DNA of 32,729 bases from Bacteroidales bacterium (GTDB lineage Bacteria > Bacteroidota > Bacteroidia > Bacteroidales > JAADJA01). Position numbers and translations under genes: made by a program. Within the stretch, counting starts at the first letter, position 1. Every line of letters begins with the position of its first letter. The stretch is taken from positions 1-32,729 of the forward strand of contig JAFGBL010000120.1 of the NCBI GenBank assembly GCA_016933115.1, in the 5' to 3' direction. This document shows positions 14,874-30,348 of the stretch, piece by piece. The notes below the pieces were generated by a model that worked only from the letters and a program-made list of their open reading frames with translations, was not told where the DNA came from and ran no database searches.

Positions 14874-16121
14874 TTAGTTTTTGATAAATTTTACAATTTG
14901 TGTTCCATTCTCATTAACGACCTTAAAATAATATATCCCATTGGCTAACTTGCTAATATTAAAAGTTCTTGTTTGATGTAAAAACTCATGTTTCAATATT
15001 TCTTGTCCTCTGTTGTTGTAAATAGAAACGTTGCCTTCAATTGGGATATTGAAAGTAATAATATTAGAACCAGGATTTGGAAAAACAGATATAAATTTGA
15101 ATTTAGGTTTATAATCATTTAAACCAACCGTCTGGTTACCACCATTTGTTGTTTTAAATATCAATCCATTTAATCCTACAACATAACCCGTATCGATTAC
15201 AGGGAAATGGACATCACGGAGTTGGTCAGGCAAGGTGGAATCCTGGCGAATCCAATTTTGCCCTCCACCCTCAATTTTAAAAATAGTTCCATCGCCTCCC
15301 CAATCATTATATCCTGCTGCATATCCGATGTCATTACTTAAAAAATAAATTGACGTTAATTGATAATGACTAAAATTCTTTTCTGCCCAGGTTAAGCCAC
15401 CGTTATTTGTTGTAAATAGTATGTTAGACACATATGGATATAGTGCATAACCAGCACAATAACCTGTATCATTCTCAGCAAAGAAAGTTGATACAAATCC
15501 ATAACTACCATAATAATCTGTAACGGACCAATTTAAACCGCCATCAATTGTTTTAAGAATTCGAGCATAAGCCCCTGGTCCCCACATCCTTCCAACAGCG
15601 TAGCCTATATTTAAACTTGGAAAATGTACAGAATGAAGGAGTCCTTCTGTAATGAAATTTTCATTCCAATTATCGCCACCATCAATTGTTTTAAAGATTA
15701 TAGCATCACAACTCATTCCAGTAGTTGTTTTATATCCGACCGCATATCCACAACTATCGCTTGGGAAATAAACTGAAGTTAAATAAGGGTTTGGATTCAC
15801 ATTAACCATACTCCAACTAGCACCACCATTTGCCGTCTTAAGAATTGTACCTAGATCTCCAACACTGAAGCCAGTCAACAAGTCACAAAAATAAACTGAT
15901 TGCAGATCTTGACTTGTCCCCGAACCCAGTAAAGTCCAATTTGACCCACCATCTATTGTCTTAAGAATTATTCCACTATTACCTACAGCATACCCAGAGT
16001 TGCTATTAAGAAAATGGACAGAATTAAGATCTAATGAAGTACCAGAGTTTTGATAAAACCATTGTGCCTTTAATCCATAGACTACAAAAAAAGTGAATAG
16101 AATCAAGTAAATTGTTTTCAT
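14874..16121 (-). CDS. Secreted YCF48/BNR-repeat-like protein with T9SS C-terminal sorting domain
   Basis: Repeated (I/F)KTIDGGxNW and SVHFxxxxxGYAVG motifs. C-terminus ISVFPNPGSNIITFNIP...LANGIYYFKVVNENGTQIVKFIKN is a type A T9SS CTD. Confidence 0.9.
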   Translation of the reverse strand: MKTIYLILFTFFVVYGLKAQWFYQNSGTSLDLNSVHFLNSNSGYAVGNSGIILKTIDGGSNWTLLGSGTSQDLQSVYFCDLLTGFSVGDLGTILKTANGGASWSMVNVNPNPYLTSVYFPSDSCGYAVGYKTTTGMSCDAIIFKTIDGGDNWNENFITEGLLHSVHFPSLNIGYAVGRMWGPGAYARILKTIDGGLNWSVTDYYGSYGFVSTFFAENDTGYCAGYALYPYVSNILFTTNNGGLTWAEKNFSHYQLTSIYFLSNDIGYAAGYNDWGGDGTIFKIEGGGQNWIRQDSTLPDQLRDVHFPVIDTGYVVGLNGLIFKTTNGGNQTVGLNDYKPKFKFISVFPNPGSNIITFNIPIEGNVSIYNNRGQEILKHEFLHQTRTFNISKLANGIYYFKVVNENGTQIVKFIKN

Positions 16122-17710: not shown

Positions 17711-18673
17711 TTAAAATCTTTTTGTATAGCCGTGGCAGTAAGGTAATGTACCCTTGTGGTCATAATAATCCTGGTGATAATTCTCCGCTTTCCAGAATTT
17801 AGTTGCTTTCTCCAGTTTTGTGGCAATATCATATCCCTTATCTTCCAGTATTTTAATCAGTTTTTCGGCTGTCTCCTTCTGTTTTTCATCCATGTAAAAA
17901 ACCACAGACCGGTATTGCTCCCCAACATCCGGCCCCTGACGGTTAACCTGTGTGGGGTCGTGGATCTCAAAAAACAGTTTGGCCACATTTTCATAGGTGG
18001 TTTTGGCCGGGTCGAATTCAATCTCCACTGCTTCCACATGCCCGGTGGTATGCGAACAGACCTCTTCGTAAGTGGGATTTTCCGTGTGACCTCCGATGTA
18101 CCCGGAGGTAGCCGAGATCACACCTGGCTCTTTCTGCATGTAATATTCAACGCCCCAGAAACACCCCCCCGCGAAGATCGCTTTTTCAGTTTTAGATTTA
18201 TTTTCCATATCTTTTTGTGGTACAAAATTGAGTGAAACAGAATTTACGCAATGCCTTACATTCTTATCGGTAAAGCCCTCTCCTTCGAACACATGCCCCA
18301 GATGTGCCCCGCAACTGGCACATACGATCTCGGTCCGCATGCCGTCCGTATCGGGTACCCGTTTAATGGCTCCTTTGATTTCATCATCAAAGCTGGGCCA
18401 TCCGCAATGTGAGTCAAATTTGTCGGAAGAACGATAAAGCTGTGCATCGCACCTCTTACAGGTATAGGTTCCATCTTCCTTGTAATTTACATATTTACCG
18501 GTGTAGGGCATTTCCGTCCCTTTGTCAACAATCACCCTTTTTTCTTCAGCCGTTAACGGATTAAAGTTCATATTTTTTTCAGCCTCCTGTGTGCAAGCAC
18601 TATGCCCGAAAAATATTGCAAATAAAATAATTCCGGGCGCAAGTGTATAAAAATTTTTCCCCTTATCTTTCAT
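17711..18673 (-). CDS. msrAB: Bifunctional methionine sulfoxide reductase MsrB-MsrA fusion, probable lipoprotein
   Basis: MsrB domain with CxxC pairs CKRC and CASC plus GWPSFDDEI and RHCVNSVSLNF. MsrA domain with AIFAGGCFWGVEYYM...GYIGGHTENPTYEEVCSHTTGHVEAVEIEFDP. N-terminal lipobox-like FFGHSAC. Confidence 0.95.
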   Translation of the reverse strand: MKDKGKNFYTLAPGIILFAIFFGHSACTQEAEKNMNFNPLTAEEKRVIVDKGTEMPYTGKYVNYKEDGTYTCKRCDAQLYRSSDKFDSHCGWPSFDDEIKGAIKRVPDTDGMRTEIVCASCGAHLGHVFEGEGFTDKNVRHCVNSVSLNFVPQKDMENKSKTEKAIFAGGCFWGVEYYMQKEPGVISATSGYIGGHTENPTYEEVCSHTTGHVEAVEIEFDPAKTTYENVAKLFFEIHDPTQVNRQGPDVGEQYRSVVFYMDEKQKETAEKLIKILEDKGYDIATKLEKATKFWKAENYHQDYYDHKGTLPYCHGYTKRF

Positions 18674-18805: not shown

Positions 18806-18843
18806 TTCGTTTGGGTAAATGTAAAATCGAACCAGCAAAAAAG

Positions 18844-21243
18844 ATGAAAAGAGTTTTACTGGGCATTGTAATTGAGCTCCTTGTTATGCAATTCCTTTAC
18901 GGGCAAAGTGGGAGAATTGACGGACGGGTTTACGATGCCAACAACAATGAACCGTTGCCATTCACCAATATTGTAATTTGGGGCACTTCGATCGGGACCA
19001 CTTCCGACCTCGACGGCAACTTTAAGTTTACCGGTTTGGAGCCGGGTTACTTAAGGCTGGCTGCAACATCAGTGGGATATGAAGCCTATATATCTGAGGA
19101 CATTCTGGTGACTAATGCAAAAGTGGCTTACATTGAAATTGCCATGAAGGAGAAGGCCATTCAACTGGAAGAAGTGGTCGTAAAAGCGTCTCCTTTCCGC
19201 AAACCCGAGGAAAGCCCCGTTTCGATGCGGACACTCGATATTTCGGAAATTGAAAAAAATCCCGGAGGCAACCGCGATATATCCAAGGTAATTCAATCGC
19301 TTCCGGGGGTTTCAAGCACGGTATCCTTTCGGAATGATGTAATCGTGAGGGGCGGCGGTGCCAGTGAAAATTCTTTTTATCTTGATGACGTTGAAATCCC
19401 AACCATCAATCATTTTTCCACACAGGGAGCTTCAGGAGGCCCAATTGGAATTATCAATGTGGATTTTATCCGCGAAGTGGATTATTACTCGGGCGCTTTC
19501 CCTGCCTCAAAAGGTACGACTTTAAGCTCGACTTTTTTGTTTAAAATGCTTGAGCCGAATAAGGACAAAATGAACTTCAGGGCAACCCTGGGGGCTACTG
19601 ACCTCGGATTATCGCTGAACGGCCCGGTGAGTAAAAATTCAGGATTATTGTTTTCTGTCCGCCGTTCGTACCTGGGCTTTTTGTTCGATGCACTTGGATT
19701 GCCTTTTTTACCCACTTATAATGACCTCCAATTCAAATATAAAATAAACATCAACCAGAAAAATGAAATTTCTTTTATCGGTTTAGGTGCGATTGATCAG
19801 TTTGAACTGAATACAGGCCTGAAGGATCCCGATGAAAGCCAGCGATTCCTGTTGAACGCATTGCCCATCAATGAGCAGTGGAGCTATACATTCGGAGTGG
19901 TTTACAAGCATTTTCGCAAAAACGGCTTCGACACCTGGGTGGTAAGCAGGAATTACCTCGATAACAGGGCTTATAAATATTATAACAACATAGAAACGGA
20001 TTCCCTGAAGACATTTGATTATATTTCATCCGAGGCGGAAAATAAAGCACGTTTCGAGCATACCTCCAGGGTCAACGGGTTCAAGATCAATTATGGAGCC
20101 GGGATCAACTATGCCCGTTACACCAACAAAACCTTCCAAAGGATATATGATACTTCATCCACCACTATCAATTACAATTCCGGTCTGGATGTATTTAGCT
20201 GGAATGCTTTCGGACAACTGAGCAAGAGTGTTTTCAAAGAGCGGCTTACATTGTCGCTGGGCCTGCGGATGGACGCCAACAACTATTCCAAAAGCATGAC
20301 CAATATGCTCGATCAGCTGTCGCCCAGGTTTTCGGCATCCTATGCGCTGACTGAGAAATTTTCCCTGAATTTCAATACCGGCCGGTATTTCCAGCGACCG
20401 GCCTATACTACCCTTGGTTTCAGGAGCAATGACAATGAGCTCGTCAATAAGGATAACGGATTAAAATACCTCTCATCCGACCATATCGTTGGAGGGGTAG
20501 AGTTTTTACCCAATGACAAATCCAAATTCACGGTTGAGGGATTTTATAAGTTCTACAGGGATTATCCGTTCTCAGTGAATGATTCGGTAACACTTGCCAA
20601 TAAAGGAGGGGATTTTGGTACTGTGGGGAATGAGGAAGTATTGTCGATCGGAAAGGGGAGGGCTTACGGATTCGAAATTCTGGCCCGTGAAAAGGACATT
20701 AAAGGGTTCAACATCATACTGTCGTACACATTTGTTCGCAGTGAATTTCAGGACCTGAGCGGAAAATACATTGCTTCGGCCTGGGACAACAAGCACATTT
20801 TAAATATTACGGTTCTGAAAAAGCTGAAAAGAAACTGGGATATCGGCGCCAAATGGCGTTTCGTTGGAGGCCCGCCGTATACTCCTTATGATATTGCAAA
20901 ATCCAGCATCCGGTCGGCATGGGATGTGCAAAATGCACCATACCTCGATTATTCAATGTTCAATACCCTGCGGTTTGAGAATTACCACCAGCTTGATGTT
21001 CGGGTCGACAAGCAATATTATTTCAACAAATGGTCATTGATACTTTATGTGGATATCCAGAATGTTTATAATTTTAAATCGGTCGGGCAGGATTACCTGA
21101 CCAACCTGGATGAAGAAGGAAACCTCAATATAGATCCTGCAACGGCAAATTTGCCCTATGATCAGCAGAAGTATATTCTTCGCCGGCTTCAAAATGAATC
21201 GGCGACCATTTTACCGACTTTAGGCATTATCGTTGAATTTTAA
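18844..21243 (+). CDS. TonB-dependent receptor with N-terminal carboxypeptidase-regulatory-like domain
   Basis: GRIDGRVYDANNNEPLPFTNIVIWGTSIGTTSDLDGNFKFTGLEPG (CarboxypepD_reg-like). Plug region DISKVIQSLPGVSSTVSFRNDVIVRGGGASENSFYLDDVEIPTINHFSTQG followed by a beta-barrel. ATG at 18844 is followed by a signal peptide. Confidence 0.92.
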   Translation: MKRVLLGIVIELLVMQFLYGQSGRIDGRVYDANNNEPLPFTNIVIWGTSIGTTSDLDGNFKFTGLEPGYLRLAATSVGYEAYISEDILVTNAKVAYIEIAMKEKAIQLEEVVVKASPFRKPEESPVSMRTLDISEIEKNPGGNRDISKVIQSLPGVSSTVSFRNDVIVRGGGASENSFYLDDVEIPTINHFSTQGASGGPIGIINVDFIREVDYYSGAFPASKGTTLSSTFLFKMLEPNKDKMNFRATLGATDLGLSLNGPVSKNSGLLFSVRRSYLGFLFDALGLPFLPTYNDLQFKYKININQKNEISFIGLGAIDQFELNTGLKDPDESQRFLLNALPINEQWSYTFGVVYKHFRKNGFDTWVVSRNYLDNRAYKYYNNIETDSLKTFDYISSEAENKARFEHTSRVNGFKINYGAGINYARYTNKTFQRIYDTSSTTINYNSGLDVFSWNAFGQLSKSVFKERLTLSLGLRMDANNYSKSMTNMLDQLSPRFSASYALTEKFSLNFNTGRYFQRPAYTTLGFRSNDNELVNKDNGLKYLSSDHIVGGVEFLPNDKSKFTVEGFYKFYRDYPFSVNDSVTLANKGGDFGTVGNEEVLSIGKGRAYGFEILAREKDIKGFNIILSYTFVRSEFQDLSGKYIASAWDNKHILNITVLKKLKRNWDIGAKWRFVGGPPYTPYDIAKSSIRSAWDVQNAPYLDYSMFNTLRFENYHQLDVRVDKQYYFNKWSLILYVDIQNVYNFKSVGQDYLTNLDEEGNLNIDPATANLPYDQQKYILRRLQNESATILPTLGIIVEF

Positions 21244-21253
21244 TAATTTCCCA

Positions 21254-22024
21254 ATGAAAAGAATCCTTTCAATAACAGTTTTTTTCGTGGTTCTGACAGG
21301 GTTTATCCTCGTTTCGATGAACTTGAGTTTTTCAGGACCTCAGGAGCAGGTTAAAGCTAAAAATCCAGGTCAGGCGGTGTTACAGACAAATCCTGACGGT
21401 TCAGGGGCAGAACTGGAAATAATATTTAAAAAGGGTGAATCACACAATCATCCATTGATGGCCGTTTGGGTCGAAGATACTACCGGTAAATATATCCAGA
21501 CCCTTTATGTTGCCAAATCCATTGCATCCGGCATTTTTAATTATGGAGATAATTCATCGGGCACCTGGACCCAGGGGGAGGTGAGGAGGCCGGCGGCATT
21601 GCCCTACTGGGGGCACAAAAGAGGCGATCGGGCACCGGATGGGCTTTACCTGCCCACTCCTGCTAACCCGGTACCGGATGCCTATACCGGTGCAACTCCG
21701 ACCGGTGACTTCAGACTGGAAACCCGGTTGGATAAAAACGGACCCGATGTTTATGATGTTTTGCTGGAAATCAACCAGTCCTGGGATTGGAACGAATACT
21801 GGACCAACAACAAATACCCCGATGACGAGGATTACAAGAGCTCATCACAACCGGCGGTGGTTTATCAGGCAAGGGTCGGCATGAATGATACCATCAAGGA
21901 ATTTCCCATGAAGTTTATCGGACATAGCCATTATTCAGGTAAAACCGGTGAACTTTTTACGGAAACAAATTCTTTGACTACGGCTCTGGATATCGCAGAC
22001 GAAATTGTTGTTAAGGTAAAATAA
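21254..22024 (+). CDS. DUF2271-like exported protein
   Basis: Signal peptide from ATG 21254. Contains VWVEDTTGKYIQTLYVAK, LPYWGHKRG...DGLYLPTPANPVPDAYTGATPTGDF and LLEINQSWDWNEYW, which resemble DUF2271 proteins. Confidence 0.65.
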   Translation: MKRILSITVFFVVLTGFILVSMNLSFSGPQEQVKAKNPGQAVLQTNPDGSGAELEIIFKKGESHNHPLMAVWVEDTTGKYIQTLYVAKSIASGIFNYGDNSSGTWTQGEVRRPAALPYWGHKRGDRAPDGLYLPTPANPVPDAYTGATPTGDFRLETRLDKNGPDVYDVLLEINQSWDWNEYWTNNKYPDDEDYKSSSQPAVVYQARVGMNDTIKEFPMKFIGHSHYSGKTGELFTETNSLTTALDIADEIVVKVK

Positions 22025-22658: not shown

Positions 22659-22875
22659 AGTTTAATCAACCCTCAATAGTCAGGTGTAAACAATTGTAAT
22701 GGAGATAAGTAACATTAACAGCCTTTTTAGCGAATATCCGGATCGGATACCGGATGTTCTTCAAACATCAATTTTTCGAAGGAAACAACTAAACAAATGC
22801 CGGCAATTTTTGTTATAAATAATTAAAACTGAAAAATTTACACGATAAAAATTACGAATTAAAGGAGAGTAGTTT

Positions 22876-23370
22876 ATGAATAAAATGATGAGGACACTAT
22901 TGTTGGTTGCAATTACCATAGGAATGAATGTTAAATCTTTTGCACATTGCGAAGTTCCTTGCGGTATTTATAACGATGAGCTCAGGATTGCGATGCTTTA
23001 CGAGCATTTTACCACCATTGAAAAGGCTATGACCAAAATCGTTGAATTATCCAATGCTTCCGATGAGGATTATATGATGATCACGCGTTGGACCAATACC
23101 AAAGAAGACCATGCCACCGAAATACAGCATGTGGTATCTCAGTATTTCATAACCCAACGGATCAAGCTTCCTGAAACCACTGAGGGCGCAGCATACGAGA
23201 AATACATCAAACAGCTTTCGCTATTGCATCAATTGATCTTCTATGCAATGAAAACCAAACAAACCACCGATATCCAATACATTGAAAAGCTACGTGTCGC
23301 TCTTGGCGCTTTTGAGGAAGTTTATTTTGATGGCGGGCACCGGCACAAAATTGAGCTGGAGCATCATTGA
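22876..23370 (+). CDS. sodN: Nickel superoxide dismutase with Sec signal peptide
   Basis: MNKMMRTLLLVAITIGMNVKSFA|HCEVPCGIYND. The HCxxPCxxY nickel hook follows a signal peptide, then helical NiSOD-like sequence (KEDHATEIQHVVSQYFITQRIK). AGGAGAG Shine-Dalgarno-like site upstream. Confidence 0.9.
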   Translation: MNKMMRTLLLVAITIGMNVKSFAHCEVPCGIYNDELRIAMLYEHFTTIEKAMTKIVELSNASDEDYMMITRWTNTKEDHATEIQHVVSQYFITQRIKLPETTEGAAYEKYIKQLSLLHQLIFYAMKTKQTTDIQYIEKLRVALGAFEEVYFDGGHRHKIELEHH

Positions 23371-28375: not shown

Positions 28376-29641
28376 GTGAATAAACTGGCCTGTATATTAT
28401 TATTTACGATCCTGGTGAAATTTTCAGCGGGACAGACGGGATTTTCAAATCCTTATTTCCCTTCCGAACCGAAAGGCCCGGGAGAATGGAAATTGCAGTT
28501 GTCGGGATATGCCAGCCAGGAATCCAATTCAAATTCCCTGGATAACCAGTTTTTCAATACCATCAACCGGTCAGGGTTCATTGAAAAAGATGTGATTGAA
28601 ACACAAATCGACCATATTTCTGATAAAGCTTTGTCAGGCCAAATTTCAAACCTGGGTGCTGGAATATTTATCAACTCTGCAAAAAAACCGGGAAAGATAT
28701 ATTATTACGCCGGCTTTGACCATGATCATTACCTTGACACCTATATCGACAAGGATTTGGTGCAGCTGCTACTGTTGGGCAACAAGCCATTTGCTGGCCA
28801 AACACTTGAAATGCCGGCGACAAAATATTACAATATCTATTTCAACCAGGTAAAAGGTGGGGTCGGTTTTGGTTTCGGCAATGATGATGCAAGGCATGAC
28901 CTGCTGGTCAAAGTGGGCATCAACAGCGGGCAGAATTATGATTATGTCGAATTGAACAACTCATCCGTTTATACCCATCCTGAGGGGGATTTTCTGGATA
29001 TCACGGCCAATGTCATCAATCAGGCCTCCGATACGGTGTGGGCGACGGTTTTTGACATCAACGGAATGGGTGTGTCAACTGACATTTCTTATTCGTTTTT
29101 GAAAAAAGAAAATTTTTATCTGAATTTTTCGACCCGGAATCTTGGACTGATTTTTTGGAATGGGAATACTTTTTCGGGAGAAATTGATACCACTTTCCGG
29201 TTCGAAGGTTTGAGCAATGATTCCCTGAATTCACAAAACCTGCCTGGTGACTATTCATATAACAGCCTGCGGAGGCTATTGTTTAAAAACCCTGACAATG
29301 CAACTTTTTCAGAAATACTGCCCTGGAGCCTCAATCTTTCGGTGGGAAAATTCCTGGGAGGGCGAAAGTTTTACATTGGTTTTTCCGGGAATTTTTACCC
29401 CACACTGCAAGCCAACTATTTAATGGAAATTTTTGCCACCTGGAATATTCAAGAAAAGGTATACCTCACTCCTTTGGTGAAGTTCGGAAGTTACGGAAAA
29501 CTCAATTTCGGAATGGCTGCCGGAGTCAGGTTTGCAGATCGATTCAGGATCGAACTCGGCTCGGCATACCTGAACAGCATGCTGGATGAGCACGGCCTGC
29601 TGGGCAATGGCGGATTTATCCGGCTGGTTTACACCCATTAA
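28376..29641 (+). CDS. DUF5723-like putative outer-membrane protein
   Basis: GTG start, signal peptide ending SAGQ, then beta-rich sequence with GMGVSTDISYSFLKKENFYLNFSTRNLGLIFW and a C-terminal barrel-like region (FADRFRIELGSAYLNSM). Confidence 0.7.
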   Translation: MNKLACILLFTILVKFSAGQTGFSNPYFPSEPKGPGEWKLQLSGYASQESNSNSLDNQFFNTINRSGFIEKDVIETQIDHISDKALSGQISNLGAGIFINSAKKPGKIYYYAGFDHDHYLDTYIDKDLVQLLLLGNKPFAGQTLEMPATKYYNIYFNQVKGGVGFGFGNDDARHDLLVKVGINSGQNYDYVELNNSSVYTHPEGDFLDITANVINQASDTVWATVFDINGMGVSTDISYSFLKKENFYLNFSTRNLGLIFWNGNTFSGEIDTTFRFEGLSNDSLNSQNLPGDYSYNSLRRLLFKNPDNATFSEILPWSLNLSVGKFLGGRKFYIGFSGNFYPTLQANYLMEIFATWNIQEKVYLTPLVKFGSYGKLNFGMAAGVRFADRFRIELGSAYLNSMLDEHGLLGNGGFIRLVYTH

Positions 29642-30303
29642 TCATTCGATGCTTTGTAATCGGACGGCACCAGGCACTTGTTGTTTTCCCACCTGCCTTT
29701 AAGACTATCATCCGGAATGATCCTGTCATCACAATCCAGAAAATTACCATTTGAATCCGTTTTGATAATTCTGGCTTTTCCCGAAAGGATGGATTCAATA
29801 ACAATTTCTTCAATCTCAATCGTTCCTGCCTCTTTATTTTCCGACCCCAAGCCGATCCCCAGTTCATTGTTCCACAGGTCCATTTCAGAAGCTACCTGAT
29901 CATGGCTTGTAGGTTCGCCTTTCTTTTTCTTCTTTTTAAAGGTGATGTAATTCCCTTTTTCGTGGGCAATTCCCAACCATTTGGATTTTCGCCGGTCGAT
30001 CTCCTGGGTGAGCAGTGCCAACCACAGGGTGTGCTTGTAGGCATCCAGTTGGCCTCCTGAGATGTTTTGATCGAGAGTGCCGGCGAATTTGATGCTGTCG
30101 GTCAGTTGGAGGGTATGTTTGGTGATATGGAATGATTTCTTCGCCACAAACGGATGAAAAACAACCCACCATTTTTCCGGTCGGCTAAGTCCCTTGAATC
30201 GTGGTTTTAGGTTTATTTGCTGTGCAGTACCGCTTGAGCAAAACATAATCATTAGGATTGTAACCAGGAAAATAGATTTAGCGTATTTCGAAATATTAAA
30301 CAT
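29638..30303 (-). CDS. Exported protein with DUF6973-like domain
   Basis: GGQLDAYKHTLWLALLTQEI...LGIAHEKGNYITF...SEMDLWNNELGIGLG resembles the DAxRHxxWxALL...HE...MDLxNNxxG pattern. Start at internal ATG (MFNISKYAK) preferred. Confidence 0.65.
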   Translation of the reverse strand: MFNISKYAKSIFLVTILMIMFCSSGTAQQINLKPRFKGLSRPEKWWVVFHPFVAKKSFHITKHTLQLTDSIKFAGTLDQNISGGQLDAYKHTLWLALLTQEIDRRKSKWLGIAHEKGNYITFKKKKKKGEPTSHDQVASEMDLWNNELGIGLGSENKEAGTIEIEEIVIESILSGKARIIKTDSNGNFLDCDDRIIPDDSLKGRWENNKCLVPSDYKASND

Positions 30304-30348
30304 AGAAAATTTAAAGGTAACCAAAAATATAAAATACCTTTTGTTAAG

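Follow-up and report, generated by a model that had tools for sequence, protein, structure and literature searches.

The 32,729-nucleotide contig JAFGBL010000120.1 of a Bacteroidales bacterium (assembly GCA_016933115.1), which we refer to as the window, encodes a divergent member of the nickel superoxide dismutase (NiSOD) family at 22876-23370. Its hydrophobic leader ends exactly where the nickel hook begins, and this junction is kept across a clade of relatives. The product is probably an extracytoplasmic, most likely periplasmic, NiSOD that is exported through Sec, matured by signal peptidase I without SodX and loaded with nickel after export. The gene has the following features.

22859-22875, + strand: ribosome-binding site region (AAAGGAGAG) upstream of the start codon, read from the sequence.
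22876-23370, + strand: gene of a predicted exported nickel superoxide dismutase-family protein, 164-residue precursor (open reading frame, Pfam PF09055).
22876-22944, + strand: predicted Sec-type signal peptide MNKMMRTLLLVAITIGMNVKSFA, 23 residues (sequence, site scan, clade conservation).
22945-22971, + strand: nickel hook HCEVPCGIY with His1, Cys2, Cys6 and Tyr9 (invariant positions, NiSOD alignment).
22975-23325, + strand: predicted four-helix bundle, mature residues 11-127 (AlphaFold2 model, PDB structure matches).
23326-23367, + strand: His-rich C-terminal tail DGGHRHKIELEHH, low-confidence and flexible, candidate nickel-collecting segment (composition, model confidence).

The open reading frame starts at the ATG at 22876, downstream of AAAGGAGAG, and its stop codon ends at 23370. 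The leader (residues 1-23) has the n-h-c layout of a signal peptide, with the basic n-region MNKMMR (K/R), TLLLVAITIGMNV and the c-region KSFA; the hydrophobic core reads LLLVAITI. The junction is MNKMMRTLLLVAITIGMNVKSFA/HCEVPCGIY, and the codon of His1, precursor residue 24, starts at 22945. Small residues occupy positions -3 and -1. A site scan permits cleavage at SFA/HC, and SFA/H is the only plausible site beside the hook. The leader has no twin arginine, which rules out Tat export. The mature N-terminus follows the hook pattern H-C-x-x-P-C-G-x-Y with His1, Cys2 and Cys6 in place, and H1, C2, P5 and C6 are invariant across 47 aligned NiSODs, sodX types included. An earlier note on this DNA had read a signal sequence directly before HCEVPCGIY and predicted cleavage immediately before His24; the sequence and the site scan bear this out.

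Relatives were collected by Sod_Ni searches of 396 Bacteroidota genomes (3 matched), 149 genomes from the same order as the window (7 exceeded the cut-off), 79 genomes of one further Bacteroidota family (5 matched) and 289 genomes from the phylum that includes L014, one of the Opitutae (46 matched). A tblastn-type scan of named genomes contributed Bacteroidales, Calditrichota, Hydrogenothermaceae (Aquificota) and Lentisphaerota, and a plasmid collection contributed Ilyobacter (Fusobacteriota). A weak match in G771 (L087, 21.7 bits) is not a NiSOD, as the protein has 389 residues and no hook. Counting the window protein, 63 clade members have a readable N-terminus, and the clade spans at least five phyla: Bacteroidota, Verrucomicrobiota/Lentisphaerota, Aquificota, Calditrichota and Fusobacteriota. 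The gene occurs sporadically within Bacteroidota and is absent from a genome of the same genus.

The hydrophobic leader ends exactly at His1 in all 63 members. Leader length is 18-40 residues depending on the start chosen, with one leader of 54. Position -1 is occupied by Ala (57 members), Ser (3), Thr, Gly or Pro (1 each), and position -3 by A, V, I, S, L, G or T. Of the 63 junctions, 62 obey the (-3,-1) rule, compared to about 9% of mature-protein positions, which rules out a chance junction. Hydrophobic maxima of the leaders lie between 1.76 and 3.90 in the clade, whereas three sodX-type controls reach 0.56, 1.21 and -0.53. These controls (Nonomuraea L079, Novosphingobium L080, and L088, the second gene of G819) have leaders of 12-19 residues that lack a hydrophobic core. 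The hook starts with HCD in these three NiSODs and with HCE or HCQ in all exported members.

The maturation protease gene sodX was sought with TIGR02754. Both positive-control matches fall under the curated cut-off of this model, so coverage and E-value were used instead. The control sodX lies beside sodN in Novosphingobium (44 bits, positions 2-89) and, in a protein scan, in Nonomuraea (54.6 bits, positions 2-88), that is, in both checkable sodX-type genes. The expected sodX in the same genome, usually adjacent, is not seen for the window gene: none adjoins it and none was found elsewhere in its own genome, which is 88% complete. The sole match there covers about 33 residues of a protein that TIGR02227 identifies as signal peptidase I (124 bits), namely its C-terminal box. 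Across 63 carrier genomes we found no convincing or full-length sodX (one scan considered only matches at E <= 1e-6). Most matches again comprise about 33 residues of the C-terminal box of signal peptidases, and two partial matches reached 23 bits (G404) and 32 bits (G682).

The earlier note had likewise seen no sodX-like gene adjacent, and the comparisons that it proposed came out in its favor: the signal-hook junction is preserved in homologues from Bacteroidota and from four further phyla, and their genomes yield no full-length sodX. Because the junction is conserved, the leaders are hydrophobic and a convincing sodX was not found, a role of the leader as substrate for Sec and signal peptidase I, whose cut would free His1, is well supported at the sequence level. 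This agrees with the proposal of the note that signal peptidase I would mature an exported NiSOD.

In the proposed pathway, the precursor would be exported unfolded through Sec and cut by signal peptidase I after SFA. This single cut would leave the free amino group of His1 beside Cys2, so that maturation would need no SodX, and the hook would then bind nickel outside the cytoplasm. Since the leader ends exactly where the hook must begin, ordinary export would relocate the protein as well as activate it. Nickel would be loaded after export, perhaps aided by the His-rich tail. The enzyme would clear superoxide that arises at the cytoplasmic membrane or beyond it, with a separate iron/manganese superoxide dismutase (Fe/Mn-SOD) serving the cytoplasm.

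The window protein matches Pfam Sod_Ni (PF09055) with 95.7 bits (4.1e-27, cut-off 25) and is the only Sod_Ni protein in its genome. An AlphaFold2 model of the mature protein, built from a 44-sequence alignment, has a mean predicted local distance difference test score (pLDDT) of 89.6, with helices at residues 11-36, 43-69, 82-106 and 111-127. The hook and the tail are modeled with uncertainty (tail pLDDT 35-50). The 16 best PDB structure matches are all NiSODs, with template modeling scores of 0.77-0.82 (target length) and modest E-values of 0.005-0.06. The model and these matches predict a four-helix bundle, and the homology of the mature region to the NiSOD fold assumed in the earlier note holds.

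Several observations weigh against a working NiSOD of the known kind. The NCBI equivalog model TIGR02753 for sodN gives the window protein only 32.3 bits where 90 are needed (154.9 bits for the Nonomuraea control); together with the Sod_Ni score, this marks it as a divergent NiSOD. Identity to characterized NiSODs is 16-19% by structure, and a long branch (support 99/97) parts the exported members from the sodX types. Differences extend to the second shell, as aligned to a Streptomyces sequence that agrees with chains 1t6i/1t6q over its first 60 residues. While the equivalents of Arg39, Tyr62 and Lys89 are retained in exported members, all 62 have Glu or Gln at the position of Asp3, and 61 of the 62 have His at that of Arg47. 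Most lack Glu17, in a column that is less surely aligned. The register at Arg47 is firm, as no gap separates it from an invariant Arg and the sequences share KE and A. Hydrogen bonds link His1, Glu17 and Arg47 into a network in Streptomyces NiSOD (PMC5722923), which the exported members largely lack. The sodX-type L080 also lacks Glu17 and Arg47, and the network characterizes the Streptomyces enzyme, not the whole family. Given the replacements of Asp3, Arg47 and Glu17, superoxide dismutase activity cannot be taken for granted, and the status of the clade as working NiSODs is less certain. In addition, Cys2 and Cys6 would be exposed in the periplasm, where a disulfide could form, and copper or zinc could compete for the hook.

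It is possible, although unlikely, that the protein is an exported metal binder of the NiSOD fold, sequestering or carrying nickel (or copper) via the free His-Cys hook and the His-rich tail with no significant superoxide dismutase activity. The altered second shell would fit such a role, as would the tail: the window protein has 4 His in its last 14 residues, 47/61 members have at least two there, and the His content of this segment is 19% versus 4% in the body. The Streptomyces and Nonomuraea enzymes have no His in the tail. According to PMC12537917, several exported proteins whose N-terminus is His bind metals or act as permease partners. However, His1, both Cys and Pro5 never vary, and all 62 exported members have Tyr or Phe at position 9, which goes beyond the needs of simple chelation. 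The entire four-helix bundle is conserved as well, and no conserved nickel-transport gene was found among the neighbors scanned. In an exported NiSOD, the tail would be a candidate for collecting nickel.

We give little credence to a classical cytoplasmic NiSOD, in which a cytoplasmic protease, SodX-like or not, cuts off the leader as a propeptide and the hydrophobic stretch of the leader is incidental. Characterized NiSODs do carry a leader that needs removal, and a sodX could sit in the missing ~12% of the draft genome, but hydrophobic leaders are found in 63/63 clade members and in 0/3 sodX-type controls, and the carrier genomes without a full-length sodX come from several phyla. Least probable of all is a leader that keeps His1 from ever being free, either as an uncleaved membrane anchor or as a lipoprotein signal processed ahead of Cys25: a Cys does lie two residues past the predicted site and two leaders are long (about 54 residues in L004 and L090), but the His preceding Cys in every clade member breaks the lipobox and rules out the lipoprotein form, and an anchor would not keep the -3/-1 pattern of signal peptidase I exactly there in 62/63 members.

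Most Bacteroidota sequences group together in the tree. As it holds only three sodX-type sequences, it does not fix the root or a single origin of the exported class. L058, a sequence from the Verrucomicrobiota-phylum set (G623), branches inside the Bacteroidota group of the window, which suggests transfer or misbinning. An apparent second, sodX-type NiSOD on a small contig (L088, 3-182) belongs to a Bacteroidota draft genome, G819, that also has an exported NiSOD; it may be contamination. We tentatively suggest that the exported proteins are a deep-branching NiSOD class of at least five phyla, which would use the general secretion machinery as its sole maturation system, load nickel outside the cytoplasm with a His-rich tail and have a different second shell.

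An Fe/Mn-SOD is present in the window's own genome and in 29/40 carriers, so the exported enzyme is no substitute for it. A complementary pattern is not supported, either for Fe/Mn-SOD (29/40 carriers versus 22/40 non-carriers, Fisher p 0.16) or for the copper/zinc enzyme (CuZn-SOD) SodC, which is rare either way (1/40 versus 3/40, p 0.6). A SodC-like open reading frame (PF00080, 154.9 bits) at 490-873 of L092 (G000 contig C4) has one in-frame TAG near its 3' end and is a pseudogene or an assembly error.

Upstream of the NiSOD gene, the window encodes a TonB-dependent receptor and, after it, an exported protein with weak resemblance to DUF2271 (18811-22024, + strand), and these are the main neighbors shared with the close relatives L005-L007. 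A fused methionine sulfoxide reductase (SelR and PMSR; 17711-18673, - strand) with a hydrophobic N-terminus, encoded 4 kb away from the NiSOD, also relates to oxidative damage. A cbb3 oxidase cluster encloses an exported NiSOD gene in two genomes that belong to a single Bacteroidota genus (L066, 4913-11923; L099, 4589-11670), in the order ccoNO fusion, ccoQ, ccoP, sodN, ccoG, ccoH. A terminator-like hairpin separates ccoP from sodN in L099 and the linkage is limited to these two genomes, so we do not claim co-transcription. Four exported window proteins (14874-16121, 18811-21243, 28376-29641 and 29638-30324) have similar signal peptidase I leaders with Gln after the presumed cut, in agreement with the Bacteroidetes Q-rule (PMC5837995). 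The NiSODs keep His instead, because the hook requires it. Rfam gave no match in the window, and a promoter scan found nothing above chance.

NiSOD is usually described as cytoplasmic, with a dedicated maturation protease. If the exported enzyme is real, export and activation would be one step, SodX would be unnecessary, nickel would be loaded in a compartment with competing copper and zinc, and bacteria without SodC would gain an extracytoplasmic superoxide dismutase. It has been suggested for some cyanobacteria that sodN without sodX is possibly non-functional (PMC8346466). In surveys that reach such a verdict, a check for a signal peptide should come first.

The signal-His junction is not new, since a 2025 paper (PMC12537917) already used the signal peptide of the Roseiconus lacunae NiSOD WP_230780104.1 with an added His as a query, which retrieved many Ni-SODs; the paper states that NiSODs bind nickel via the N-terminal His. 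The Roseiconus protein, compared by the description in that paper and not aligned, is likewise a signal-peptide NiSOD. Thus, the arrangement described in the earlier note stands, while its framing as unusual should be toned down. The available passages of PMC12537917 contain no study of NiSOD maturation, sodX absence or phylogeny. Our literature search, whose coverage left out the main sodN phylogenetic paper (Dupont 2008), found nothing on the maturation, sodX absence or distribution of the exported class. The additions here are its breadth, the absence of sodX, the tail and the second-shell differences.

In ubiquitin-NiSOD fusions, the hook is freed by a borrowed general protease instead of SodX. 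These fusions are found in algae (PMC6332867) and are eukaryotic with a ubiquitin leader, whereas the window class has a signal peptide. Periplasmic CuZn-SOD (SodC) shares the probable job of extracytoplasmic superoxide removal, but its fold and metals are unrelated to those of NiSOD. The closest known system is Streptomyces SodN with SodX (TIGR02753/TIGR02754; PDB 1t6u, 1q0d), which has the same HCxxPCGxY hook, four-helix bundle and invariant Arg39, Tyr62 and Lys89 equivalents. In the window class, a Sec-type signal peptide replaces the short hydrophilic propeptide, and no sodX was found. Further differences are the changes of Asp3 to Glu/Gln and Arg47 to His, an insertion between the hook helix and helix 2, the His-rich tail and a separate branch in the tree.
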